A stretch of 64,000 nt of DNA from Archaeoglobus sp. GTDB taxonomy: Archaea; Halobacteriota; Archaeoglobi; Archaeoglobales; Archaeoglobaceae. The first letter of the stretch is position 1. Each line of letters begins with the position of its first letter. A program made the position numbers and the translations under genes. The stretch lies in contig JACDNU010000009.1 of the NCBI GenBank assembly GCA_017656505.1, forward strand, positions 1-64,000, written 5' to 3'. Shown piece after piece: positions 5,311 through 64,000 of this stretch. The notes under the pieces were generated by a model. It did not search any database. It was not told where the DNA came from and was given only the letters and a program-made list of their open reading frames with translations.

Positions 5311-6489
5311 TTACTTCAGCTCTTCATACCACTCGCAAAGAATCTCAAATTGTTTGTGGGTGTTTACAATATTCGTTTCCATCGGGCTCTTGAAGAAGAA
5401 TCCCAGCTCTTTCACAACTCCAAACTGCCCTTTCTTCTTTGCGAATATCAAAAATCTGGCCAGATCAATTATGAGTGGGGCAGCAACTATCGCATCTATG
5501 GCATCCCAGATGAAGTAGAACTTCATCGCCGTTCCAAGGAAGCCTTTGAAGTGTATGAAGTCGAAAGCGGTTTTGTTATCCACAAGACTCGGGAAGTACT
5601 CTATCTCCGTAATACTGTAAGGCGCCTCTCCAAGAATCTTCTCCAGAACGCTGTCCTTGCTTACAACCTTACTCTCCTTGTTGTCCTTGTGACTTAAGAC
5701 CATTCCATCGAAGTCGCCCAGAATATTGTATCCCATCCAACCCAAAACCTTGAGATTCCTATAAGCGAACATAGGAGCCAGAGTTGTTTTAACGAGCGTC
5801 TCACCAGTTTTTCCATCGTTACCGGCATGAGGCGTTTTGTTCACCCTCGCAAGCTCCTTTAAAGCGGGAATGCTTGAACCTGCACTGGGTGTGAAATTCG
5901 CATACGGTATGCCAAGCTTAAGCGATGCGTATGCATAGAGCATGCTTGCAGAAATGTACTCCCTCTCATCATCGTCCAAAGCTCTCTCGAATCCATCAAG
6001 AGTGCCATGGACTTCATCCTTGTAGTTCGGTAGCGGCTCAGTTGAGGCAGTATTTATCACTACAGTCTCATCATCGGCGAATTCTTTCATGTCCGCGATG
6101 AGAATATCGGCTATCTCTCTCAGCGAAAGCTCGCTGTCCTCAAGGGTTTTTATCTCACCCAGTTCGTTAAGGCCAGTTCCGCAGTTCAAAGCGGTTCCAG
6201 TTTTTGCCTCTATTTTTTCAAGCTCCTCCCTCACGTTCTCAAGTAGTCGAAAATCGAAGTGTCGGTTGAGGTTCCAGTGCTCCAGTGCCGCATCGTATGC
6301 ATTCTCTTTCATCCGTATCTCATGTCCCCCGAATTCAAAACCGGACGATATCTGGTCTTTTAAATCTTGAAAATGAGGGAGCTCAGAAACTAATCCTGTG
6401 TAATCATCATACCCTTTTTCGAGGTTCTTTGCTCCCACCATTGCAGTAGTGGAAACAATCCCGTATGAACCGATGATCCAAACTTTCAT
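5311..6489 (-). CDS. ino1: myo-inositol-1-phosphate synthase
   Basis: MKVWIIGSYGIVSTTAMVGAKNL, NDGKTGETLVKTTLAPMF, GDFDGMVLSHKDNKESKV. Confidence 0.85.
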   Translation of the reverse strand: MKVWIIGSYGIVSTTAMVGAKNLEKGYDDYTGLVSELPHFQDLKDQISSGFEFGGHEIRMKENAYDAALEHWNLNRHFDFRLLENVREELEKIEAKTGTALNCGTGLNELGEIKTLEDSELSLREIADILIADMKEFADDETVVINTASTEPLPNYKDEVHGTLDGFERALDDDEREYISASMLYAYASLKLGIPYANFTPSAGSSIPALKELARVNKTPHAGNDGKTGETLVKTTLAPMFAYRNLKVLGWMGYNILGDFDGMVLSHKDNKESKVVSKDSVLEKILGEAPYSITEIEYFPSLVDNKTAFDFIHFKGFLGTAMKFYFIWDAIDAIVAAPLIIDLARFLIFAKKKGQFGVVKELGFFFKSPMETNIVNTHKQFEILCEWYEELK

Positions 6490-11988: not shown

Positions 11989-12354
11989 ATGGACACCAGG
12001 GATGAGATAATTCAGATTCTGGAGAAAAAAGGTTCTATTCTTCAAAAGGATTTGTGGAAGGAGCTGAATATAGACAGCAGCAAATGCTCCAGAATCTTAA
12101 GAAAGCTTGAGAAAGAGGATATTATCAGGAGACTTGAGGTTGTTGTCGATGGTGTTAAGACTTTCAAGATAGTTCCTGCAGATGCGGAGATTGAGGAGGA
12201 GCCGAAGGAGGAGGAACTCAGCCTCCAGCAGATAATGGAAAGAATGGAAGATCTAACAGGCCTGCCTCCCTGCTTCGGCTGTAAAGAGTTCGAGTGTGAG
12301 GCCCAAAACTGCATAAAAATGGAAGTTTGGTTTTTGAGAAGAGTTAGGGATTGA
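11989..12354 (+). CDS. Winged-helix regulator with C-terminal Cys cluster
   Basis: wHTH plus CFGCKEFECEAQNC. Confidence 0.7.
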   Translation: MDTRDEIIQILEKKGSILQKDLWKELNIDSSKCSRILRKLEKEDIIRRLEVVVDGVKTFKIVPADAEIEEEPKEEELSLQQIMERMEDLTGLPPCFGCKEFECEAQNCIKMEVWFLRRVRD

Positions 12355-12501
12355 GGTGGGGATTAAGATAATAAAAATTAAAATAAAATTAAAGTTAGTA
12401 ATAAAATTAGTAATTGCATTTCTAATCTAGTTTCAATCTAACAACCACAATTTCAAAAAACCGATTAAAGAAAAACAGAATAAAGATATGTTACTCCCAA
12501 A

Positions 12502-12969
12502 TTACTTTCTAAGGGCAATTCTAAGTTTAACTGGATCGTAACTCCAGTCCTTTGGCAAAATTCCCTTTTCCTTGTAGTAGCAGGAAAGCCTCCAGATTTT
12601 CGCCTCTATTAGTTGCAAGCCTCTCTTGTTGTGGAAGTCTTTCTTGTGAACCTCGAGATGCTTTCTCAAATTTAGTGCCTTCTTTATCAAAGCCTTGAGA
12701 TCTTCAGGATAATCAATCTTCACTCCTTTCTCTTTCAGAAGCTTCACTAGCTTCTTGCCGGTGATCTGTCTTACGGATGGAACTCCATAGCGGTCTCTGA
12801 GGATCATCCCAATCATGCTCGGTTCGTAGCCCTCGTTATACAGCTCTAAGATCCTTTTTTCTACCTCTTCAGGAGTTAGATCCACCCATTCTGGAGGAGA
12901 ATCACGGTAAACCCTCTTTGATCCTGAACTTCCCCTTCTTCTTGCATGCATTCTTGCCATAAGCATCAC
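12502..12969 (-). CDS. rpsO: 30S ribosomal protein S15
   Basis: Archaeal S15 pattern: MARMHARRRGSSGSKR, PEDLKALIKKALNLRKHLEVHKKDFHNKRGLQLIEAKIWRLSCYYK. Confidence 0.93.
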   Translation of the reverse strand: MMLMARMHARRRGSSGSKRVYRDSPPEWVDLTPEEVEKRILELYNEGYEPSMIGMILRDRYGVPSVRQITGKKLVKLLKEKGVKIDYPEDLKALIKKALNLRKHLEVHKKDFHNKRGLQLIEAKIWRLSCYYKEKGILPKDWSYDPVKLRIALRK

Positions 12970-13054
12970 CCTAAGTTATCACCTTAAGTTATCAGTTCTC
13001 AGCGTATTCTGTTTCAACTTAAATATTTTTTGTTAGAGATTCTGGAGTTGAATT

Positions 13055-13609
13055 TTACTGAGTTCTTGATCTATCCTTTGCAATCGACCTGAAAAAGTTC
13101 TCTATCGCCCTCCTTCTATGCGAGACTTCATTTTTCTCATCACCCATCTCCGCAAAGGTTCTCCCTTTGTACTCAAAAATCGGATCGTAGCCGAATCCCT
13201 TCTCTCCCCTCTTTTCTGTTGCAATCAGGCCATGGACCTCACCGCTAAAAGTTCTAACCCCCTTACCATCAAAGTAAGCCACAACAGCTTTAAATTTTGC
13301 TTTTCTGTTATTTACTCCCTCCATTAACTTCAATATCCCGTTATTACCTATAGTTTTGAAAACATAGGATGAATATGGGCCAGGGAAACCTTTTAGGGCT
13401 TCAACGAAGAGGCCACTGTCTTCGATGAAAAATGGCTTTTTGATTTCTTTGGCCAGCAATTCTGCGCTCTTTATTGCAATCTCTTCAAGATCACTTCCTT
13501 GGATTTCCTCATATTCCATTTTCATCCATTCAACTTCCACTCCGAAAGTCTCCCCTATCCTCTTCACTTCTTTGAACTTTCCTTCGTTAGAAGTGATGAA
13601 AAGTATCAT
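13055..13609 (-). CDS. XTP/dITP diphosphatase (RdgB/HAM1)
   Basis: [43 protein letters not shown]. Confidence 0.9.
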
Positions 13610-13707
13610 CCTCCCACCTCTCGAATTTTTTTTCTTGAGTTGCTTATTAATTTTTTTAATTTTTAATAGAAAATCTTTTAAAGGGTTCTGCGCTTATAAA
13701 ACGAAAG

Positions 13708-14076
13708 GTGATAATTTTGGAAGAGAAGGAGAGTAAAGACGAGGGTAAAAAAACTTCTGTAGGATTGGAAGAGAATATTGAAGGAGCCTTAGCGTATTTG
13801 CTCGGATTCGTTACCGGTATAGTGTTTCTGCTTATTGAAAAGGAGAGCCAATTCGTAAGATTCCACGCGATGCAATCAACGGTTACGTTTATCGTAATCT
13901 TCATAGTGAATGTAATTCTTGGCTACATACCTTTCATCGGATGGGCTTTGAACTCGATAGTAAGCTTGGTAGCACTGATTTTATGGCTCCTTGGTATGTA
14001 CAAAGCTTACAAAGGCGAGCTTTACAAGTTTCCCATATTTGGGGATATTGCCGAATCACAACTTGGGAAACTTTAG
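13708..14076 (+). CDS. DUF4870-like membrane protein
   Basis: GALAYLLGFVTGIVFLLIEKESQFVRFHAMQS. Confidence 0.7.
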   Translation: MIILEEKESKDEGKKTSVGLEENIEGALAYLLGFVTGIVFLLIEKESQFVRFHAMQSTVTFIVIFIVNVILGYIPFIGWALNSIVSLVALILWLLGMYKAYKGELYKFPIFGDIAESQLGKL

Positions 14077-18741: not shown

Positions 18742-19986
18742 TCAACCACCAAAAAGATCGAGAGAAACTATACTCTGAATCTGCTTTTCCGATTTTGATA
18801 GAATTTTTAGCCTGTAATCTTCCAGAATGACGTTTTTAACAGATTCAACTGGTATATCCAGCCTTATCTCTCTCGTCCTGCCATACCTCCCCTTTGATAT
18901 AACAATTGAATTCAAAATGCCAAGCATGTCGAGCTCCGAGATGAGATCACTTATCCTTCGCTGGGTTAAAGCGTCTATTCCCGCTCTCTTACAAAGGGAT
19001 TTGTAAACCGTATAAACCTCTCCAGTCGTGAATTTCCTTCTCCCAGTCTGAGCAAGGAGAATCATCCCGTAAAGCAGAATCTTGTTCTGGGTCGGGAGAG
19101 TTCTAACGACCTCATTCACGTGATCGCTCTCTATCTTCTTTACAGCCTTCTTAACATGATCCCTTGAAACCTTACTGGCCCCTTCCCTTTCAGCGATTTC
19201 TCCGCTTACTCTAAGCAAATCCAAAGCCTTCCTCGCATCCCCGTGCTCTTGGGCTGCCAGAGCAGCGCAGTAAGGAATGACCTCTTCGTCAAGAACTCCA
19301 TCATAGAACGCGAGCTCTGCTCTCTGAGCTAAGATGTCCTTGAGCTGTTCAGCGTTGTAGGGGGGGAAGATTATCTCTTCTTCGCTCAAGGAGCTTATCA
19401 CTCTTGGATCGAGAAAGTTCTTGAATTTCAGATCATTTGATATTCCGATAAGGCTCACGCGAGCTCTCTCAAGCTCAGAATTGATCCTCGAGAGGCTGTA
19501 CAGCACCTCATCCCCTTTTCTGACGAGCTTGTCTATCTCATCGAGAACTATGATTATCGTTTGCGAGTGGGCATCAATTGCCATCTTAACTTCTTCATAA
19601 ACCTGATCAGTAGGCCAACCGGTCATCGGGACGTTTCTTCCAAGAACCTTCGCCAATGTTGCTAGAACTCGGTATTGCGTATCAATGATTTCGCAATTCA
19701 AGTAATGCATGTAACATCTGCAGTTATGCTTCTTGCTGAACTTTTCGAGCTCCTTTCCTACGAATTTTACAGTAGCAGTCTTACCCGTTCCAGTCTTACC
19801 GTAGATGAGGATGTTCGAGGGAGTTTCGCCTTTCAAAGCTGAAACGAGAATGGAAGCTAAGGCTTCAAGCTGCCTTTTCCTGTGGGGCAATTGCTCGGGG
19901 GTGTAGGAGTGGCGGAGCACATCCCTGTTCCTGAAAATCCTTACCCCCTTAATTATATCGTCAAAAATATTAAAATTATCTGTCAT
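18742..19986 (-). CDS. cdc6: Orc1/Cdc6 replication initiator
   Basis: ILIYGKTGTGKTATVKFV, IIVLDEIDKLV, C-terminal wHTH. Confidence 0.95.
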   Translation of the reverse strand: MTDNFNIFDDIIKGVRIFRNRDVLRHSYTPEQLPHRKRQLEALASILVSALKGETPSNILIYGKTGTGKTATVKFVGKELEKFSKKHNCRCYMHYLNCEIIDTQYRVLATLAKVLGRNVPMTGWPTDQVYEEVKMAIDAHSQTIIIVLDEIDKLVRKGDEVLYSLSRINSELERARVSLIGISNDLKFKNFLDPRVISSLSEEEIIFPPYNAEQLKDILAQRAELAFYDGVLDEEVIPYCAALAAQEHGDARKALDLLRVSGEIAEREGASKVSRDHVKKAVKKIESDHVNEVVRTLPTQNKILLYGMILLAQTGRRKFTTGEVYTVYKSLCKRAGIDALTQRRISDLISELDMLGILNSIVISKGRYGRTREIRLDIPVESVKNVILEDYRLKILSKSEKQIQSIVSLDLFGG

Positions 19987-49174: not shown

Positions 49175-49510
49175 TTAAACTTTAATAGCTGTCATGCTGA
49201 ATGGTTGAAAGAGGGCTCGTGGTCTAGCGGTTATGACGTCGCCCTTACAAGGCGGAGGTCGAGGGTTCAAATCCCTCCGAGCCCATTTATTTCCAAATAC
49301 AATGATCTCAAAAGGTTGTTCAGTCCTAAGAGAGTCCAGAAGTTTATCGATAGTCTCTGAAAAGCGATTTCTAAAATTCTCTTTTAGAAATATATAATTC
49401 TCTTGTGAAATTCTGATATGGAGATCAACCCTTCTCTGGCGGTTTTTGGGATTTTGAGAATCTCTTAATGTTGATTCAGAGTATGTTCCAGATTGTTCCA
49501 TGTGGAACAT
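49175..49510 (-). CDS. RHH-like protein whose ORF reads through the antisense of the tRNA
   Basis: RRVDLHIRISQENYIFLKENFRNRFSETIDKLLDSL; C-terminus ARRDLNPRPPP... is tRNA antisense. Confidence 0.45.
   Translation of the reverse strand: MFHMEQSGTYSESTLRDSQNPKNRQRRVDLHIRISQENYIFLKENFRNRFSETIDKLLDSLRTEQPFEIIVFGNKWARRDLNPRPPPCKGDVITARPRALFQPFSMTAIKV
49213..49285 (+). tRNA. tRNA-Val (TAC); candidate integration site of the adjacent provirus
   Basis: GGGCTCG/CGAGCCC acceptor stem, T-arm GAGGGTTCAAATCCCTC, anticodon loop CTTACAA. Confidence 0.93.
49484..49509. promoter_or_regulatory. Repeated operator TGTTCCA/TGTTCCA/TGGAACA at start of RHH-like ORF
   Basis: tgttcca 49484-49490, 49494-49500, inverted tggaaca 49503-49509. 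Confidence 0.5.
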
Positions 49511-51890: not shown

Positions 51891-52189
51891 TGATCGAAGA
51901 AGTTCATGACATTGAAGAGTTCAAGAATATCGTTAGGGAGGGCTGCAGACTTCGATATCAGATCCTCGTGGACGTTGATACGTTTCATGGGGTTATAATG
52001 GGAGGAACAGCGAGGCTTGAGATCTGGGGGATAGCGAAAGAGGGGCACATAACGAAATACGTTGAATCTAAATCGATTAAGGGGCTAATGAAGCCTGAAG
52101 AGTTTCAAGAGAAAATTGCAGAGATAGGCAAGGAGCTTGAGGAGAAAGCTAAGAATTTAGGGGCGAGAAAGGGGAGATACTATGAATAA
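51890..52189 (+). CDS. Hypothetical viral protein
   Basis: 99-aa ORF, overlapping stop/start with neighbours. Confidence 0.6.
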   Translation: MIEEVHDIEEFKNIVREGCRLRYQILVDVDTFHGVIMGGTARLEIWGIAKEGHITKYVESKSIKGLMKPEEFQEKIAEIGKELEEKAKNLGARKGRYYE

Positions 52190-52757
52190 ACTCGATCTCG
52201 TTCAAGAGGATTCTATCAATTTTTCTTTACAGGCGATAGATCTTGCAAAGAACATCATTAACGCTAAGATCATTGAGCTTGCAGCCCTCGGCGGCAATCA
52301 GAACGTGATAAACGGGCTACAATACGTGATTAACAAGCTGGATGAGCTTAAAACCCACCTTAAAACAAGTAATCTCATCCTGAAGGCTCAGGGGAGCATT
52401 AAGGTAAGCATCACGGATCTTGACGTTTTGATACACAAGGATGGGAAGCTAATAGCGGGCTTTGAGCAGAAATTCAGGAGAGATGCATTTTACAACCACT
52501 TTATCCCGTTGAATGCTGCTCAATACATCACATTGAAGGATATCAAGAAGAAGTTAGGGCTTAAGAGGTTTTACTACCTTTTCCACCTTCCGAAAAACCG
52601 TTACATCGTTCTCCCGTTAAGTGATGGCTGGAAAATCGAGAAGCTTGGAACAGGGCATGCAAGGGCTTCCTATGCTTTAGCTCCAATCGGAGAAGCCCAA
52701 AACATGAGTGAAGGGCAGCTAATCAACTTCTTGAGGGAGATAATCAGGGAGGGTTAA
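52182..52757 (+). CDS. Possible PD-(D/E)xK nuclease-like protein
   Basis: ITDLDVLIHKDGKLIAGFEQKFRR (D...ExK spacing). Confidence 0.6.
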   Translation: MNKLDLVQEDSINFSLQAIDLAKNIINAKIIELAALGGNQNVINGLQYVINKLDELKTHLKTSNLILKAQGSIKVSITDLDVLIHKDGKLIAGFEQKFRRDAFYNHFIPLNAAQYITLKDIKKKLGLKRFYYLFHLPKNRYIVLPLSDGWKIEKLGTGHARASYALAPIGEAQNMSEGQLINFLREIIREG

Positions 52758-55229: not shown

Positions 55230-55497
55230 TAGAGGCAAGGAGAAGAAAATCAAGCTGGTTCTGGAAGTGCTGGTGCAAAACGATATTGAGGCTATGGAGG
55301 TTGCGGTTGCTATTGGCGGACTGCTCAGAGATCTCGATAACAGGTTCAAGTATGGTGTTTTTTACGGGATAGAGGGAGTTCACGGCTACAAATCTAACAG
55401 AGTAAAGCAGGAATGGTGGGATGAGGAGGAAGATGAGGAAGAGGAAGAGGGGAAGATCCCACCAGATAACCATTTTAACAGAATCGAGGTGAAATGA
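55216..55497 (+). CDS. Hypothetical viral protein with acidic tail
   Basis: Start ATG 55216 MVRFSRGKEKKIKLVLEVLVQND; C-term DEEEDEEEEEGK. Confidence 0.55.
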   Translation: MVRFSRGKEKKIKLVLEVLVQNDIEAMEVAVAIGGLLRDLDNRFKYGVFYGIEGVHGYKSNRVKQEWWDEEEDEEEEEGKIPPDNHFNRIEVK

Positions 55498-56279
55498 TGC
55501 CCTGCTTGGTTGATGCATCCGAGTGGTGCATGAAGCATTGCAGGGGCAAGAACAAAGATGATGAATGTATTTTGTATCTGGAGAATCCAGAGGAATTTAA
55601 TAAGCACGAGCCTATTTGGAAGTCTTGGGAAATTAAAAGAGAAGGGGGAAACATAATAATTGGCTTCGATGGGGCATCAGGAGGAGGCAAAACAACGTTA
55701 GTAAACAAACTTGCAGAAATTCTTGAACGGGAAGGTTATGATGTTGGGGTTGTTCAGGAAGTCGTTAGGGGAGTTTTCAGGGAGTTTAAGAAGAGATACG
55801 GATTTAACAACCTTACAGAGTTAAGGGCAAGCTCCAGAATAGTAGAATTCCAGCAAAAATGCCTGTTTGAACAATATTTACAAGAAGAACTTATGATGGA
55901 TGAGCACGATATAGTTCTTAGTGATAGAACGCTTTTTGGCAATGAATTCTTTACTCTCCTTTACTGCAACAGAGATTCAAGAGCTTTAAACGAATATTTC
56001 AGCAAACTGGAGGAATACATGAAAGTTAGGAAGCTAACGTATGGGAAAATCTATGATGCTGTTGTAATAGTTCATCCCCTTCCCCCTGAAATCAATGTGG
56101 ATGATGGATTCAGATCTCAGGATCTCCACTACAGGGAGGTTCAAACCTTTGCAATTAAGCAGCTTGCAAAGGCTTATGTTGATCGCATAATAGAGCTGAA
56201 AACAGCAGATCTATGGGAGCGGATCAACTTAGTTAAACCGCTTGTTGATTACCTTGTTGTTGAACAGTTGATCCACTAA
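55494..56279 (+). CDS. P-loop NTPase/nucleotide kinase-like (AAA_28/NadR-kinase type)
   Basis: IIIGFDGASGGGKTTLVNKLAEILEREGYDVGVVQEVVRGVF; DIVLSDRTLFGNEFF. Confidence 0.75.
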   Translation: MMPCLVDASEWCMKHCRGKNKDDECILYLENPEEFNKHEPIWKSWEIKREGGNIIIGFDGASGGGKTTLVNKLAEILEREGYDVGVVQEVVRGVFREFKKRYGFNNLTELRASSRIVEFQQKCLFEQYLQEELMMDEHDIVLSDRTLFGNEFFTLLYCNRDSRALNEYFSKLEEYMKVRKLTYGKIYDAVVIVHPLPPEINVDDGFRSQDLHYREVQTFAIKQLAKAYVDRIIELKTADLWERINLVKPLVDYLVVEQLIH

Positions 56280-56333: not shown

Positions 56334-56595
56334 GTTGATGTTGAATTGATTGATGTTGATGTTGATCAACATGTTGATCAACGTTGATGTTGATTTCACC
56401 ACGAATCATTAAAGTGATTCAAATCAACATTTATCAACATGTCTGAGGAGGGAGATTCTGAACCAAAAAAGGTTGTTTGCTTGAATTGCGGGCATGTTTG
56501 GGAAACTACAGCTAAACGTCCTCAGTGCTCAATCTGCAAATCAACAAGAGTTGAGGAGGTTGATTCTGCTGATGTTGATGTTGATGTTGATCAAC
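56334..56595. repeat. GTTGAT/ATCAAC iteron-like repeat array with three GTTGATCAAC palindromes
   Basis: GTTGATCAAC at 56361-56370, 56373-56382, 56586-56595; further GTTGAT and ATCAAC copies in between and around. Confidence 0.8.
56401..56414 (+). promoter_or_regulatory. Virus-specific promoter-like element ACGAATCATTAAAG
   Basis: TTAAAG begins 30 nt before ATG 56439; same motif at 58443 and 61281. Confidence 0.65.
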
Positions 56596-56948
56596 AGGAA
56601 TCAACATCAGAGAAATCAAACGTCGATGATTTCTTTGAGCTGGATGATTCAGCAATCGATGAGTTGATCAAGGAGGATAAGCCCAAGAAGAAGAAGGGCA
56701 GGAAGAAAAAGGAGCAGAAGGCTGAAGATAAAGAGAATGGAGAGAAAAAAGGCTTTTCAATCAGGGGAGGGCTTAAAGCTGTAGGTAGCAAAGTTGGATC
56801 GGGAGTAATACTCATTGGAGTGGGGCTGATATTCTTGTTCTTCATTCTGAGAGGGATTGCAGCAAGGAAAAGCAGGAAGATCGTTCAGGATATGGGAATG
56901 GATATTCAAGAAGAACAGGGTTTCGATCCTTATTCAGCATTGGGCTAA
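56439..56948 (+). CDS. Zinc-ribbon, acidic/basic linker and single-TM protein
   Basis: VCLNCGHVWETTAKRPQCSICKS; TM SGVILIGVGLIFLFFILRGIAARK. Confidence 0.7.
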   Translation: MSEEGDSEPKKVVCLNCGHVWETTAKRPQCSICKSTRVEEVDSADVDVDVDQQESTSEKSNVDDFFELDDSAIDELIKEDKPKKKKGRKKKEQKAEDKENGEKKGFSIRGGLKAVGSKVGSGVILIGVGLIFLFFILRGIAARKSRKIVQDMGMDIQEEQGFDPYSALG

Positions 56949-56957
56949 GGTGATTAC

Positions 56958-57125
56958 ATGCTCGGATCTCTGAAAGCCATCAATGGCTTGATTGATCAGC
57001 TTAATAAGTTGCTGGAAAGAGAAGATATTCAGGAAAAGCTGAAGAATGAAGGAGTTAAGGGCAAGCTGGAGATAGAAGGCTACAAAATCTATTTTGTAAT
57101 TAAGAAGGAGGGAGAGGATGAGTGA
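56958..57125 (+). CDS. 55-aa hypothetical protein
   Basis: MLGSLKAINGLIDQLNKLLEREDIQEKLKNEGVKGKLEIEGYKIYFVIKKEGEDE. Confidence 0.55.
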   Translation: MLGSLKAINGLIDQLNKLLEREDIQEKLKNEGVKGKLEIEGYKIYFVIKKEGEDE

Positions 57126-57717
57126 TGATGAAGTCTTTGAGCAATTGAGTAGCAAGGATATTACAGCAGATCTTGAAATTAAGGTTGAATCAAAAGGAAC
57201 TCCAACCTCCACTTCAGCAGAAACTGAAGGAGAAGGAGAAGAGTTTGAGATCCCTGATTCTCCTCATCCTCTCACAGAGCTGCTTGATATGAGCATCAAC
57301 TTTACCGATCAGCATGCAAGTGAACTTCAGAAGAAAGGTATTGATGTTCCTAACGTGAATAAGCCATTGTGGGAGAACTTTGGAAGGCCATTACTCAATA
57401 AGGCTTTCTGGTATTACTTCCCCGAATCGGATGGGATGGAAGATCCAAGAATAGCTTTGCTGGCTGGAGGAGCATTAACTGTTATGGCGGTTGCTCCTTC
57501 CTTGATCGGAATCGTTAGGCATTACAGGAAACAAGATGAGAAGGAGAAAAGAAAGGTGCAGAACGATAAACCCAAAACGATAAAGCAAGCTCAGAAAGAG
57601 CAGATAAAGGAAGTTGCAAAGGAGGCTGAAGAGGAGAGGCAGAAACAGCTTGAGCAGGCAATCAGGGAATCCCCGTATCTAAAGAAAATCAAGTATGAGG
57701 AGTTTGCTGGAATTTAA
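57118..57717 (+). CDS. Membrane protein, virion-associated candidate
   Basis: TM IALLAGGALTVMAVAPSLIGIV followed by charged C-terminal helix. Confidence 0.65.
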   Translation: MSDDEVFEQLSSKDITADLEIKVESKGTPTSTSAETEGEGEEFEIPDSPHPLTELLDMSINFTDQHASELQKKGIDVPNVNKPLWENFGRPLLNKAFWYYFPESDGMEDPRIALLAGGALTVMAVAPSLIGIVRHYRKQDEKEKRKVQNDKPKTIKQAQKEQIKEVAKEAEEERQKQLEQAIRESPYLKKIKYEEFAGI

Positions 57718-57762
57718 TTCCCACTAATTTATTTATCCTTGGGGATTCCTTGGGGTGGTTAC

Positions 57763-58443
57763 ATGGACTACAAGTTTATGAAGAATGCTCACATGATGGT
57801 TGCTGCTCCAACTGGTGGAGGCAAGAGCTATTTCGTAGGATGGATGGCTGAAAAGCTATATCAGGCTGGAAGGAGATTCATAATTCTGGATACAAAAACC
57901 AGAAACCACATCGGGCTGGTTGCCCTTAAAAAGCTCAAACTGCTCAAAATTAAGCCAAATACAGCTTATGATTACTGGAAGCTCATCAATTACGATCAGG
58001 TTCTTTGCATTCCTACAGAACGGACTAAAACAAAGGAGCTAATCAACCACTACAGGGCGATTCTGGATACAATCTTTGCAGCAAAAAAGCCCGTTACGGT
58101 TTTCGTTGAGGAAGCCCATAACTACAACCCAAACCCTCACGTTCCTGATGAGCTTTTAGAGCTTATAGCAAGGGAGGGGCGAAGCTCCCGAATTAACTTA
58201 GTTTTCATAACTCAGAGGATTCAGGATTTCCCAAAACTCTTGTGGAGTCAATGTAAGCTTACTTACCTTTTCAAATTCATGATTCCCCAAGATGTCAAGT
58301 ATATAGCAAGGATGATTCCCGATTTTGAGGAAATAAACAGGGAGCTGCAGAAGCATGATTGCCTTGAATACGATCATGAATCAAATAAGATAAGGATCAT
58401 CAGAGCTTCAGAAGTCATCAGGAAGACTAAACATTACGGCTAA
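57763..58443 (+). CDS. FtsK/HerA-type genome-packaging ATPase
   Basis: Walker A MMVAAPTGGGKSYF, Walker B VTVFVEEAHNY, FITQRIQDF; ATG 57763 preferred over TTG 57739. Confidence 0.82.
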   Translation: MDYKFMKNAHMMVAAPTGGGKSYFVGWMAEKLYQAGRRFIILDTKTRNHIGLVALKKLKLLKIKPNTAYDYWKLINYDQVLCIPTERTKTKELINHYRAILDTIFAAKKPVTVFVEEAHNYNPNPHVPDELLELIAREGRSSRINLVFITQRIQDFPKLLWSQCKLTYLFKFMIPQDVKYIARMIPDFEEINRELQKHDCLEYDHESNKIRIIRASEVIRKTKHYG

Positions 58444-58866: not shown

Positions 58867-61254
58867 ATGGCATCGGAAGTAAAGGCTGAAAACATAATAT
58901 CGCCTTACGATCTCCTTCCAGAGAATGAAGCGAACAAGCTTGAGCTAATTTTCAACGTTTTGATCAAAAACGGCTGGAGATTGGGCAGATTCGATAAGAA
59001 ATTCTTCTTCAAGTTCAAGAAATACGGCATTAAAACCTATCTGGATAAAGAAAAGCTGGCTCACCTGCTCTACAAATACAGGAAGCAAATTGAGGGAATT
59101 GTAAGGAAGATGGATAAAACGGATCTGGATATTCTCACAGAGGCAGGGTTCTTTGATCTGATGGATAAACTTCAGAAAGGAGAACCAGTAACGGAATCAG
59201 AGGTTAAAATCCCTTACGATAAGCTTGATACCAAAACTCCATTCGATGAGGATTTGCAATATCGTTATGAGTGTGCAACGTTTTTCCCAAGAGATCTTAA
59301 TGAGTGGTATTGGAGCTATTATCAGTATGCTCTGGGCGATATCCTCATGAAGATAGATATGGGAGAAATCAAGCCCTCTCCAGCCTTAGTGGATGCAATG
59401 GAGAAAGTCAAGAGGGCTTTATACGAATACATCTACATTTGGGCAACTGAAACAATCAAGTATCCTTCTCCCATCGTGGTGGGATTCTCAAAGTATCCTT
59501 ACGCTCAGGCTCAGAAATCAGCAGATCGGAAGCTGAGAGCGATGGAAAAGTTTGCAAAAGCCCTCAAATACTTGGATAAGGTTCTGGAGAATGAAGGAGT
59601 AAGAGCAAAAGGGATCAAGGATTTAGAGCTAAAGTTTAGCAAGGTTAAGGAGATCAAGCAAGTTAAGGTTGATAGAGTTGAGATCAAGGGGTTCATGTAT
59701 CCAAGCGGGCAGGAGCACGTTAGGCTGTTCTTCCACTTCACATGGGATGGTAAACCTCTCACGATTGAGGAAATCTTTAAGGGAAGGGGCTATGCAATCA
59801 GCAATCTTAACGGGCTGCTGAAGTTGGGGCATTACGTTTTCAATATCGGGGATGAGCTTGTTCAGCTTGAATGGGATGTTCCAGAAGTCAAAAGGTGGGA
59901 AATGTTCTTCTTCAACGCATGGTATAATTTGGGCTTTTACGTGGGGGTAAACAAGGGAAATATCGTTAGAAAAAGGTTATACTTTAACAAAGTTACAGGG
60001 CTTTCGGGCTGGATGGATGAGGATGAAAAGCCATCAAAGGATAACTGGATCGCATGTCGGGTAGATACTTATTTCAAGTGGGCTAAGGAGGTTATAGGGA
60101 AGCTGAACAAGGATCTCAGAGATCTTGAAAAGCTGGTTAAAAAGAAGTGGGATGAGAACAAGATCTATTATCTGGATCATCTCTCAGAGATCAAAAGAGA
60201 GGTTGAACTTAAGCAAAAGGAGAAGGCAGAAAAAACGGCTGTTGATCTTGCAGAAAAGGAGCATGAGATTCCAGCGGAGAAGCTGGAGAAGGTTGCAGAG
60301 ATAGTTCTTAAGCACATGAATGAGGGTGTGGAAACTGTTGATAGGCTGAAGTCGTGGGTAACAAATAAGCTATACTTCCCTGATGAGAGGAAGCTTGAGC
60401 AAATCATCAAGGAGATTATCAAAGAGCATGATAAGGAGTTGAACAAGCTCAAAGTTCTGGATGTTGATATGGGCAAGATTCAGGGATTTGAAGATGCTTA
60501 TACCTTCCTCCCCGTTCCCTCTGATGAGGAAATTTACAGGGCAGCAATGAAGGCTTACAATCTGGATAAGATTGCAGAGCGTGAACAGGTAAGAGTTAGC
60601 TTGCTTGAAGATCAGCTCAGAGATAAATATGATCCAAAGGTGATTACTGCCAAGCTGGAGGATATGGCATCAAGAGGATTAGTTGATCCCCACATGCTCT
60701 TTAAGGGCAGAGTTCTTTTCCTAAAAGAGTATAAGCCAAAGGAAGAGAAAAAGGATAAAAAAGCGACTAAAAAAGGCAAGAAGAAAAAGCAAACTAAGGC
60801 TAAAAAGTCGAGAGTCATGAATAAGGGGCTGCAAATTGCAAAGCTCAAACAATTCTTAAAGAAACATGGCATTGATCCAGATCTTGTGGATCTTGAGGCT
60901 CTTGTTGATTCAACCCTAACTTACAGGGAGAACAAGGAAAACATCATGAGGCAGCTTGGGATTTCGGAGGGCTTAACGGTTAAACCATCACATATAGAGC
61001 TGCAGGAGATAGAGGATGCAATAAGGCAGGCTCAGATGTATCATGAAATGAGGAGCGAAAGAGCACAGAGGATGGATGAGAGTAAAGTTGCCAAGATACC
61101 AAAAGATCCAGAGGCGTGGTTCAGGCATCCAGAACGCTATGATCTCCCTGAAGTGGATTATCCTGATCCCACCTATTCTGTTGAGGATTATCTAAAAGAT
61201 ATCAAGCAGAAAAAGCAGAAAAAGAGAACGAGAAGAAAGAGCAAGAGTAAATAA
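58867..61254 (+). CDS. 795-aa viral protein of unknown function with Lys-rich C-terminal region
   Basis: Largest complete ORF of element; KKDKKATKKGKKKKQTKAKKS and KQKKQKKRTRRKSKSK. Confidence 0.85.
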   Translation: MASEVKAENIISPYDLLPENEANKLELIFNVLIKNGWRLGRFDKKFFFKFKKYGIKTYLDKEKLAHLLYKYRKQIEGIVRKMDKTDLDILTEAGFFDLMDKLQKGEPVTESEVKIPYDKLDTKTPFDEDLQYRYECATFFPRDLNEWYWSYYQYALGDILMKIDMGEIKPSPALVDAMEKVKRALYEYIYIWATETIKYPSPIVVGFSKYPYAQAQKSADRKLRAMEKFAKALKYLDKVLENEGVRAKGIKDLELKFSKVKEIKQVKVDRVEIKGFMYPSGQEHVRLFFHFTWDGKPLTIEEIFKGRGYAISNLNGLLKLGHYVFNIGDELVQLEWDVPEVKRWEMFFFNAWYNLGFYVGVNKGNIVRKRLYFNKVTGLSGWMDEDEKPSKDNWIACRVDTYFKWAKEVIGKLNKDLRDLEKLVKKKWDENKIYYLDHLSEIKREVELKQKEKAEKTAVDLAEKEHEIPAEKLEKVAEIVLKHMNEGVETVDRLKSWVTNKLYFPDERKLEQIIKEIIKEHDKELNKLKVLDVDMGKIQGFEDAYTFLPVPSDEEIYRAAMKAYNLDKIAEREQVRVSLLEDQLRDKYDPKVITAKLEDMASRGLVDPHMLFKGRVLFLKEYKPKEEKKDKKATKKGKKKKQTKAKKSRVMNKGLQIAKLKQFLKKHGIDPDLVDLEALVDSTLTYRENKENIMRQLGISEGLTVKPSHIELQEIEDAIRQAQMYHEMRSERAQRMDESKVAKIPKDPEAWFRHPERYDLPEVDYPDPTYSVEDYLKDIKQKKQKKRTRRKSKSK

Positions 61255-61317: not shown

Positions 61318-61428
61318 ATGAGCGAATGGGTGGTAATTGGCTTGATTGGTTGTGCCCCGTTTTGGCTGTCTGCCTGCCTTGCGGGGCTGAGAGCTGTAAC
61401 AAGCCTGTGGAGTGCTGAAAAGGAGTAA
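61318..61428 (+). CDS. 36-aa TM protein, virion membrane candidate
   Basis: MSEWVVIGLIGCAPFWLSACLAGLRAVTSLWSAEKE. Confidence 0.5.
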   Translation: MSEWVVIGLIGCAPFWLSACLAGLRAVTSLWSAEKE

Positions 61429-61435
61429 TGGGGGG

Positions 61436-61570
61436 ATGAAGATGTTTGGAGTGAACGTTGAGAGAGGGATAAAGAAAGTGATGGAGGTTGTTGTGCCTGT
61501 TGCGGTTGGAGTGTTCATAGAGGGAGCTTTCGATATTTCTGGCAAGGTTAAGAAGCTGCTTAAGATGTGA
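61436..61570 (+). CDS. 44-aa hydrophobic protein, virion membrane candidate
   Basis: MKMFGVNVERGIKKVMEVVVPVAVGVFIEGAFDISGKVKKLLKM. Confidence 0.55.
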   Translation: MKMFGVNVERGIKKVMEVVVPVAVGVFIEGAFDISGKVKKLLKM

Positions 61571-61580
61571 GGAAGGAGGG

Positions 61581-62567
61581 ATGGCGATGTATAGCAAGAA
61601 GAGAACTCTCAGCCAGAGGATAACGCTCACGAATAGGAAGATCGACCTGCCACGTGATGCGGTTATTGATGCGATCATGCTTTACTGCAAGCTAACTCTG
61701 AAAAACAACGATGGGGCTAACGCATTCAGCGGAAAGATGAGAGATGTGTTGGATGCTCTGAAGGAAGTTAGGGTTGTTTCGGATGGTAACAACATCCACT
61801 ACTCACTGAGCGGTTCTGATATCGCTGTAATTAACTACTATGATAATCAGGGCAAGGCTGTAAACGTTGATGCGGATGTTTCAATCGATGCTGGAGCTAC
61901 TAAGGAGTTTGATTTCCTGCTCATTCTGGATGCTGGAGATATTCTCGCCCTCACGAAGGATTCTCTGGAGCTTTCGGTTGATTTCGAAGATGCAATTGAT
62001 GATTCAGGAAACGTTACGGTTGAGGATGCTGAGATCAAGATAACGATAGAGGAGAACGTTTTCACTGTTGCGGAGTTTGCAAACACTTATGGGGCAAATC
62101 TGGAGCTGGCTGCAGAGCCTAAAATTTACGCAAGGGAGAAGAAGTTCTCCGCTTCGAATGAGCTTGTTGAGGTTATGGAGCTTCCTGTGGGAACTCTGCT
62201 CAGAAAGGCTTTCATAACGTTTAGAGATTCTAACGGGGAGGAGTCGGATTCTCTGGTTGAGAAATACGGAATCATCATCACTACTCCAGATAGAAGGGAG
62301 CTTTACACCATAGATTACAATACGGCTAAGGAGTATCAGAAGCTCATGTTCCTTGCCGATCCAATTACGGGAACGGTTGTGCTGGATTATGGGGCTGAAA
62401 TCACTAACGATGTTTACGGAGTGAGGGCGTGGAAGTTTAACAAGGGAGATTACCAGCTTGCCCTTAAAGCAAATGCTGAGGGAACTCTGAGATACGTGAG
62501 CTATGAGTTTGTAGTTAACACTAAAGTGATGGATGCGGTGGATAAGGCAGTGATAGAGGCCTCTTAA
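61581..62567 (+). CDS. Candidate major capsid protein, double-jelly-roll-like
   Basis: 328 aa, beta-rich, two halves with parallel LPxx[AT]hhxxA[IF][MI] openings and VRVVSDGNNIHY / GIIITTPDRREL strands; sits downstream of packaging ATPase and small TM proteins. Confidence 0.6.
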   Translation: MAMYSKKRTLSQRITLTNRKIDLPRDAVIDAIMLYCKLTLKNNDGANAFSGKMRDVLDALKEVRVVSDGNNIHYSLSGSDIAVINYYDNQGKAVNVDADVSIDAGATKEFDFLLILDAGDILALTKDSLELSVDFEDAIDDSGNVTVEDAEIKITIEENVFTVAEFANTYGANLELAAEPKIYAREKKFSASNELVEVMELPVGTLLRKAFITFRDSNGEESDSLVEKYGIIITTPDRRELYTIDYNTAKEYQKLMFLADPITGTVVLDYGAEITNDVYGVRAWKFNKGDYQLALKANAEGTLRYVSYEFVVNTKVMDAVDKAVIEAS

Positions 62568-62655: not shown

Positions 62656-64000
62656 ATGTTTGATCTGTTTGGTGCAATAGGTTCAGCCGTTAGCTCCTTC
62701 ACTCGTTCAGTTTCTTCAGCATTTAGCTCATTTTCTCGTTCAGTTACTTCAGGAATCAGCCACGTTCAGAGATCAGTTCAGAGAACGATTTCAACGATTC
62801 CAAGAACTGTAAGCTCAGGGATTAGCCACATTCAGAGAACTGTAAGTGGAGGGATTACCCAAGCAAGGAGAACGGTTTATTCAGGATTCAGAAATTTCCA
62901 GAGAACAGTTTCGAGAACGATCCCAAGAACGATTCCAACTCCTCAGATCCCACAAATCAAAATGCCACCTATAAAACCAAAACTCCCACCAATCACTCCG
63001 AAAACTGTTTCTCAAGTTTCCAACATAGTTGTTAGAAAAGTATCTGAAGCTGCTCATTCTTTGCCCACGATAAAGGTTAAAACTCCTCAATTGCCCCAGA
63101 TAAAGCCATCATCAATTAAGCTTCCAGAAATCAAGCTCCCTGAGATTAAAGTTCAAACTCCTCAGATTAAGCTTCCCGAAGTTAAACTTCAAGCTCCTAA
63201 GGTTAAGCTCCCCGAAATCAGACTTCCTGAAATTAAAATCGAAAATAAGCCTATAGTTAAACCTCAGGATGTTAATACTGTTGCAGATTCCGCAAGAAAG
63301 GCGATCATAAATATCGTTGAAAAGAGGGATGCAATTTACGAAAGAGGGAGCTTGCCACAAGTTGCGGCAGCAATGGCTGCAGATTTTGTTTTACCTCTTG
63401 ATCTTGCCAAAGTTTTAACGAAAGGAGCTGAAAAACCAGAGGATTACTTTTGGGCTGGAATTGACGTGATAGGGCTTATTCCTTTCGCTGGATGGGCAGT
63501 CAAAGGAGCTGTTAAGGGCGGATTGAAGAGTGCTAAGCTCTTGAAGCTTGCTAAATTTGCAAAAACAGGTAAGGAGGTTGAAGAAGTTGCGAAATTAGGA
63601 AAGGGGGTTGAAAGTATGAGTTGGATTAAAGGTTTGTTTAGGTTGGGTAAGTTGGAAGGTAAAGAAATTAAAGAGCTGAAAAGTTTGAGAACTCCGAGAA
63701 TCAAGCTTCCTGAAATTCCGAAATTCAGCAGGTTCAGGATCTTCAAAGATATAAAAGAAATTAAAGGAGCAAGAGAATTCAGAGGGTTCAGAAGGCTGAG
63801 GTTGCCACGAAAAATACCGCATTTTGAGATGCCAAAGCTGAGAAATCCCTTCGCAAGGATGAAGCCCGTTAGAACTTTCAAAGTTGCTGATGAGATCCCT
63901 GAGGTTGCCAAACTTGCTGGAAAGGCTGGAAAAGAGGGATCAGCAATTGCCAAACTTGCAAAGAAGGCAGCAATTCCACTTGCAGTTGGTGGGATTCCGC
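62656..64000 (+). CDS. Repeat-rich, membrane-segment-containing large viral protein, incomplete at window end
   Basis: Open from ATG 62656 to window end with no stop; absent from ORF track; repeats RTVSSGISHIQRTVSGGI and LPEIKLPEIKVQTPQIKLPEVKLQ; segment DVIGLIPFAGWAVKGAVKGGLKSAKLLK. Confidence 0.85.
   Translation, partial: MFDLFGAIGSAVSSFTRSVSSAFSSFSRSVTSGISHVQRSVQRTISTIPRTVSSGISHIQRTVSGGITQARRTVYSGFRNFQRTVSRTIPRTIPTPQIPQIKMPPIKPKLPPITPKTVSQVSNIVVRKVSEAAHSLPTIKVKTPQLPQIKPSSIKLPEIKLPEIKVQTPQIKLPEVKLQAPKVKLPEIRLPEIKIENKPIVKPQDVNTVADSARKAIINIVEKRDAIYERGSLPQVAAAMAADFVLPLDLAKVLTKGAEKPEDYFWAGIDVIGLIPFAGWAVKGAVKGGLKSAKLLKLAKFAKTGKEVEEVAKLGKGVESMSWIKGLFRLGKLEGKEIKELKSLRTPRIKLPEIPKFSRFRIFKDIKEIKGAREFRGFRRLRLPRKIPHFEMPKLRNPFARMKPVRTFKVADEIPEVAKLAGKAGKEGSAIAKLAKKAAIPLAVGGIP

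Follow-up and report, generated by a model that had tools for sequence, protein, structure and literature searches.

A probable double-jelly-roll capsid gene of the STIV/pTN3 group in a provirus of the Archaeoglobaceae

Described archaeal elements and the capsid gene

Viruses with a double-jelly-roll (DJR) major capsid protein (MCP) are thought to form an ancient lineage, with members infecting all three domains of life. Among them, the STIV group has been defined, which contains a TKV4-MVV-like archaeal subgroup and to which pTN3 and a Pyrobaculum element belong; a STIV-like packaging ATPase is common to all its genomes (Yutin et al. 2018, PMC5894146). The pTN3-like elements of the Thermococcales have more recently been named ‘Yamaviridae’, a candidate family (2026 preprint, PMC12934983). 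Within the host class considered here, ArcVen-P3 of Archaeoglobus veneficus is a provirus that is integrated in a tRNA gene and encodes a split integrase and an FtsK-like ATPase for packaging (PMC4158269); it has a single-jelly-roll capsid protein of the sphaerolipovirus type (VP16-like), whereas that of the element presented in this work is predicted to be a DJR protein.

We analyzed a stretch of 64,000 nucleotides from an Archaeoglobus sp. contig (hereafter the window), and the rest of that contig up to position 68218. An initial annotation of the window had proposed that a 328-aa open reading frame at positions 61581-62567 encodes a DJR MCP and that it lies downstream of an ATPase and tiny transmembrane (TM) proteins. 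The exact frame is present on the plus strand with an ATG start and contains both peptides quoted in that annotation; an ATPase gene (57739-58443) and two hydrophobic frames (61318-61428 and 61412-61570) do precede it, and the DJR assignment is backed by the sequence matches given here and by the structural matches described below.

A ten-sequence profile of archaeal relatives aligned with the STIV coat protein (PDB 2BBD/3J31) over positions 17-296, with an E value of 6e-15. In tblastn searches, the MCP of pTN3 from Thermococcus nautili showed 43% identity over 94% with the window protein (E 4e-60), and this match carries the annotation ‘Major capsid protein, double jelly roll fold protein’. 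The ‘putative Major Capsid Protein’ of the Pyrobaculum oguniense extrachromosomal element is 38% identical. The PHROG ‘head protein’ family phrog_37140 matched residues 16-308 (E 0.002), and a ‘minor head protein’ family matched the protein with E 0.009. When a distant Archaeoglobaceae relative (genome G009) was the query, STIV1 and STIV2 were matched directly, with weak E values between 0.002 and 0.01.

Other searches were negative. Pfam returned no family for the MCP, the single sequence found nothing of note among PDB sequences, and neither the window MCP nor two alignments used as queries had a direct match in the phage records and IMG/VR. STIV itself, present in the phage records, was missed by the single sequence and was reached only by the profile and by the distant relative. 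The profile match, the pTN3 and Pyrobaculum matches and the G009-STIV matches settle, at the level of sequence, the identity of the protein as an MCP. Considering all the evidence, we estimate a probability of about 95% that this gene encodes the MCP of a dsDNA virus of the STIV/pTN3 group that is temperate, icosahedral and tailless and whose provirus lies in the chromosome of a member of the Archaeoglobaceae.

Boundaries and gene content of the provirus

The provirus spans at least 19 kb and occupies a tRNA-Val gene, from position 49213 to beyond the window. This tRNA-Val(TAC) gene, predicted by ARAGORN at 49213-49285 on the plus strand, is the likely integration target (attL). It is overlapped by int(N) (49175-49510, minus strand), which encodes the N-terminal part of an SSV-type integrase whose gene is split; int(C) is found on the minus strand of the contig at 67405-68218, after the distal gene of 199 aa. 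Both pieces correspond to a single integrase of the related genome G008 that is full-length though interrupted: int(N) is 56% identical to its N part and int(C) 88% identical to its C part. Furthermore, the antisense of the 3’ part of the tRNA gene (49238-49288) matches the att-region peptide of the full-length related integrase. The Pfam match of int(C) to Phage_integrase (E 3e-4) is below the curated cut-off. This layout is that of the suicidal SSV-type integrases, which disrupt their own gene on integrating (PMC8371274). Such an enzyme would have recombined within the 3’ part of tRNA-Val(TAC) to bring the element into the chromosome, leaving int(N) at one end of the element and int(C) at the other. 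The pTN3-like integrases differ in using the 5’ half of the tRNA gene (PMC8371274).

The contig ends inside int(C) at position 68218, so the right boundary and att site of this copy lie outside the assembled sequence. The missing N half of int(C) was sought elsewhere in the assembly and was not found; a tRNA-like match on another contig (C12) was considered as attR and rejected, as it reads as another tRNA gene.

All the genes upstream of the MCP mentioned hereafter are on the plus strand. The gene at 52182-52757 possibly encodes a Holliday-junction-resolvase-like nuclease, as suggested by a weak match (PHROG 27407, E 0.0017), and the one at 55494-56279 encodes a P-loop kinase-like/AAA_28 protein (Pfam PF13521, E 1.4e-15). 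A morphogenesis block follows. It comprises a 169-aa zinc-ribbon protein with one TM stretch (56439-56948), whose zinc-ribbon matches are weak and below cut-off and which matches the pTN3-03 gene region (E 2e-6); a small conserved protein of 55 aa with matches in eight related loci (56958-57125); and a 199-aa protein with one hydrophobic stretch (57118-57717), a likely virion membrane protein that adjoins the ATPase in relatives and matches the pTN3-01 gene region (E 4e-5).

The 234-aa ATPase (57739-58443) has a TTG start and the Walker A motif APTGGGKS, and is assigned to the FtsK/HerA-type genome-packaging ATPases by its matches to DUF87/HerA in Pfam (E 4e-7) and to PHROG 2666, of the head and packaging category (E 2e-28). 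As a single sequence it matches STIV B204 (4R2H) with E values of 5e-4 and 9e-4; it is 46% identical to the packaging ATPase of pTN3 and is present at most of the related loci searched. Between the ATPase and the MCP lies a 795-aa protein (58867-61254) that matched no Pfam family above cut-off and no PHROG; it is kept in G008, is shorter (628 aa) in Archaeoglobus sp. UBA234, and has no match at that place in Archaeoglobus sp. UBA230. Two small hydrophobic proteins with TM stretches come next, one of 36 aa that is 41-97% conserved in relatives (61318-61428) and one of 52 aa, also conserved, directly before the MCP (61412-61570). Directly after the MCP, a 625-aa gene with two hydrophobic stretches starts at 62656 on the plus strand, crosses the window end at 64000 and runs to contig position 64533. 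The genes after the MCP encode proteins of 625, 98, 50, 88, 63, 124, 311 and 199 aa, so that, with the frames described above, small one-TM proteins occur on both sides of the MCP. The 311-aa protein is a turret or spike candidate whose predicted model, built from two sequences, is unusable (pLDDT 40).

Compared with pTN3, five genes of the element (zinc-ribbon, 199-aa, ATPase, MCP and 88-aa) are homologous and collinear; an SSV1-like integrase at the end and a length of about 18 kb are further points of likeness to pTN3/TKV4. Of the features of the ‘Yamaviridae’, the element has a close MCP, a collinear morphogenesis block and an SSV-type integrase. The MCM helicase of pTN3 and TKV4 was absent among the larger proteins scanned, nor did any gene match the region of pTN3 that encodes it, and the 795-aa, 625-aa, 311-aa and distal 199-aa proteins had no pTN3 match at E 1e-3. 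With the Pyrobaculum oguniense TE7 element (CP003317), the window element shares, besides the MCP, the integrase and the order ATPase, tiny ORF, MCP; the other genes have no match at E 1e-3, and the host is of a different phylum. A tiny ORF is found at the place of the 52-aa frame in both pTN3 and the Pyrobaculum element.

STIV (Turriviridae; MCP B345, ATPase B204) shares the DJR fold, the profile-level homology of the MCP and a B204-like ATPase, as well as the order ATPase, MCP, large protein. Two properties of the STIV group are present: an MCP with a profile match at E 6e-15 and a fold match at TM 0.60, and a STIV-like packaging ATPase. Direct tblastn of the element genes against STIV1 gave no match at E 1e-3; hence, no homologue was found at this threshold of the turret proteins A223 and C381 or of the pyramid protein C92, which define the Turriviridae, and divergent forms of them may exist. 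The 625-aa gene is conserved after the MCP in relatives and is the positional counterpart of STIV C557, to which no homology was detected.

Related proviruses and the condition of the element

Relatives of the MCP occur in 10 of 99 related genomes, a tally that apparently includes the genome of the window itself. The full-length frame is kept in relatives at 95, 90, 54, 43, 41 and 24% identity, which indicates that the MCP is conserved as a protein. With the ten-sequence profile, the MCP was found in 17 of the 397 genomes of the phylum, from nine genera, several of them outside the class. In four relatives, a region of about 13 to 18 kb that includes the ATPase and the MCP is exactly bounded by direct repeats at a tRNA gene: 74 bases at tRNA-Thr, 50 at tRNA-Gly, 46 at tRNA-Leu and 58 at tRNA-Gly. 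The MCP tree is poorly resolved outside the closest group and, for this reason, gives no family placement.

The loci of these relatives vary. UBA230 (G019) carries two different DJR proviruses, L021 and L025, with MCPs 95% and 53% identical to that of the window. At locus L030 of G009, whose MCP is 24% identical, the att repeat (6308-6353 and 19611-19656) lies over the 5’ half of a tRNA-Leu gene, the half that pTN3 integrases are reported to use, whereas the other bounded relatives use the 3’ part. Loci L045, L046, L047, L048, L050, L051 and L054, from several other families of the same phylum, hold DJR MCP relatives of 28-39% identity, most of them with a B204-like ATPase nearby. Contig MTOP01000070.1 (L022) was assigned to the bin ‘Candidatus Aminicenantes bacterium JdFR-80’, and over 6784 bases it shares 99.99% identity with the UBA234 provirus; it probably comes from an archaeal virus and was placed in a bacterial MAG by mistake. 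At positions 12023-13950 of locus L032 (G008:C11:62000-81900), the MCP breaks off after about 140 residues, and a full-length integrase region with an internal stop comes directly after it; the distal structural genes are missing from this decayed relative.

The alternative that survives best accepts the gene as a DJR MCP and holds that the element is no longer a virus, being an integrative plasmid or a decayed provirus, as is possible for pTN3 and TKV4, which encode an MCP and for which no particles are known (PMC12934983). The loss in G008 of half of the MCP and of everything up to the integrase is consistent with such a fate, as is the split integrase, since the window copy could be excised only with the help of a second integrase gene that is intact (PMC8371274). 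On the other hand, the window copy has intact open frames for the MCP, the ATPase and the flanking structural genes, and full-length MCPs persist in relatives of 95, 90 and 54% identity. We consider the loss of viral function a real possibility, although not the favored one.

Capsid fold, kinship and significance

The AlphaFold2 model of the MCP, computed from six sequences in three clusters, is mostly beta and of modest confidence (pLDDT 63.5, pTM 0.51). Foldseek matched it to two-barrel folds: in the PDB, the STIV MCP ranked first (E 1.4e-13, TM 0.60), followed by P3 of PRD1 and PR772, PBCV-1, PM2 P2 and mavirus, which are DJR capsids, and STIV 1 was likewise first in the viral library. It is very unlikely that such a list would arise by chance, though the model is too poor for detail. 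In this structural comparison, which the initial annotation had suggested, DJR capsids were matched, with STIV as the best of them and PM2 P2 also present. Its observation that the two halves of the protein are similar did not hold. The Smith-Waterman score of half 1 against half 2 was 29, at the level of shuffled sequences (mean 31.9; 342 of 500 shuffles scored at least as high), and a profile-profile alignment of the halves from 18 sequences gave a probability of 0.5% (P = 0.12). An internal duplication in sequence is ruled out by these two analyses, and the duplication appears to be visible only in the predicted fold. Since a double jelly roll is a duplication at the level of the fold, the conclusion of the annotation was right and the proposed similarity of the halves is no evidence for it.

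That annotation had compared the protein mainly with PM2, implying a PM2-type, corticovirus-like capsid. PM2 P2 does appear among the fold matches (2VVF, E 3e-7, TM 0.42-0.48), but STIV and PRD1 outscore it, the sequence matches of the MCP are limited to STIV, pTN3 and the Pyrobaculum element, and the packaging ATPase resembles that of STIV. A member of the Corticoviridae would be expected to have an MCP closest to P2; here, P2 ranks 35th by fold and has no sequence match. We judge this kinship highly improbable in view of the STIV profile match and the Foldseek order, and the nearest kin of the MCP is the STIV/pTN3 group. Even less credible is a beta-rich cellular protein, such as an adhesin or surface protein, that merely resembles the DJR fold: the modest confidence of the model leaves some room for it, but the protein is homologous in sequence to annotated viral MCPs, co-occurs with a packaging ATPase and an integrase in tRNA-bounded elements, and is distributed patchily (10/99).

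If the gene is the MCP of a STIV/pTN3-group virus, its mode of action can be proposed by analogy. As in STIV and PRD1, the MCP would fold into two jelly rolls and trimerize into pseudo-hexagonal capsomers, which may build the capsid around an internal membrane. This membrane would hold the small TM proteins (36, 52, 169 and 199 aa, and further ones encoded beyond the window), and the HerA/FtsK-type ATPase would drive the genome into the capsid. Trimers of vertical DJR proteins characterize the Varidnaviria (Bamfordvirae); for this MCP, the two-barrel fold match is the feature observed. Production of particles by the element can likewise be proposed from these analogies.

Our search, which covered the main texts of the open literature, found no DJR virus of this kind in the Archaeoglobi, and Archaeoglobus is not mentioned in the main text of Yutin et al. 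2018 (PMC5894146). The STIV/pTN3 lineage is known and seems to be new to this host class. More tentatively, the Archaeoglobaceae elements could represent a family-level lineage of their own, made up of functional temperate DJR viruses that would be the first varidnaviruses in the Archaeoglobi. Their spike and penton proteins (candidates being the 625-aa, 311-aa and distal 199-aa proteins) would then have no kinship with those of STIV or pTN3. The set of elements offers candidates for the isolation of particles from the pTN3-like branch. Together, the intact and decayed DJR proviruses of the Archaeoglobi and their distant kin across the phylum fill a gap between the members of this lineage from Thermococcus, Pyrobaculum and Sulfolobus.
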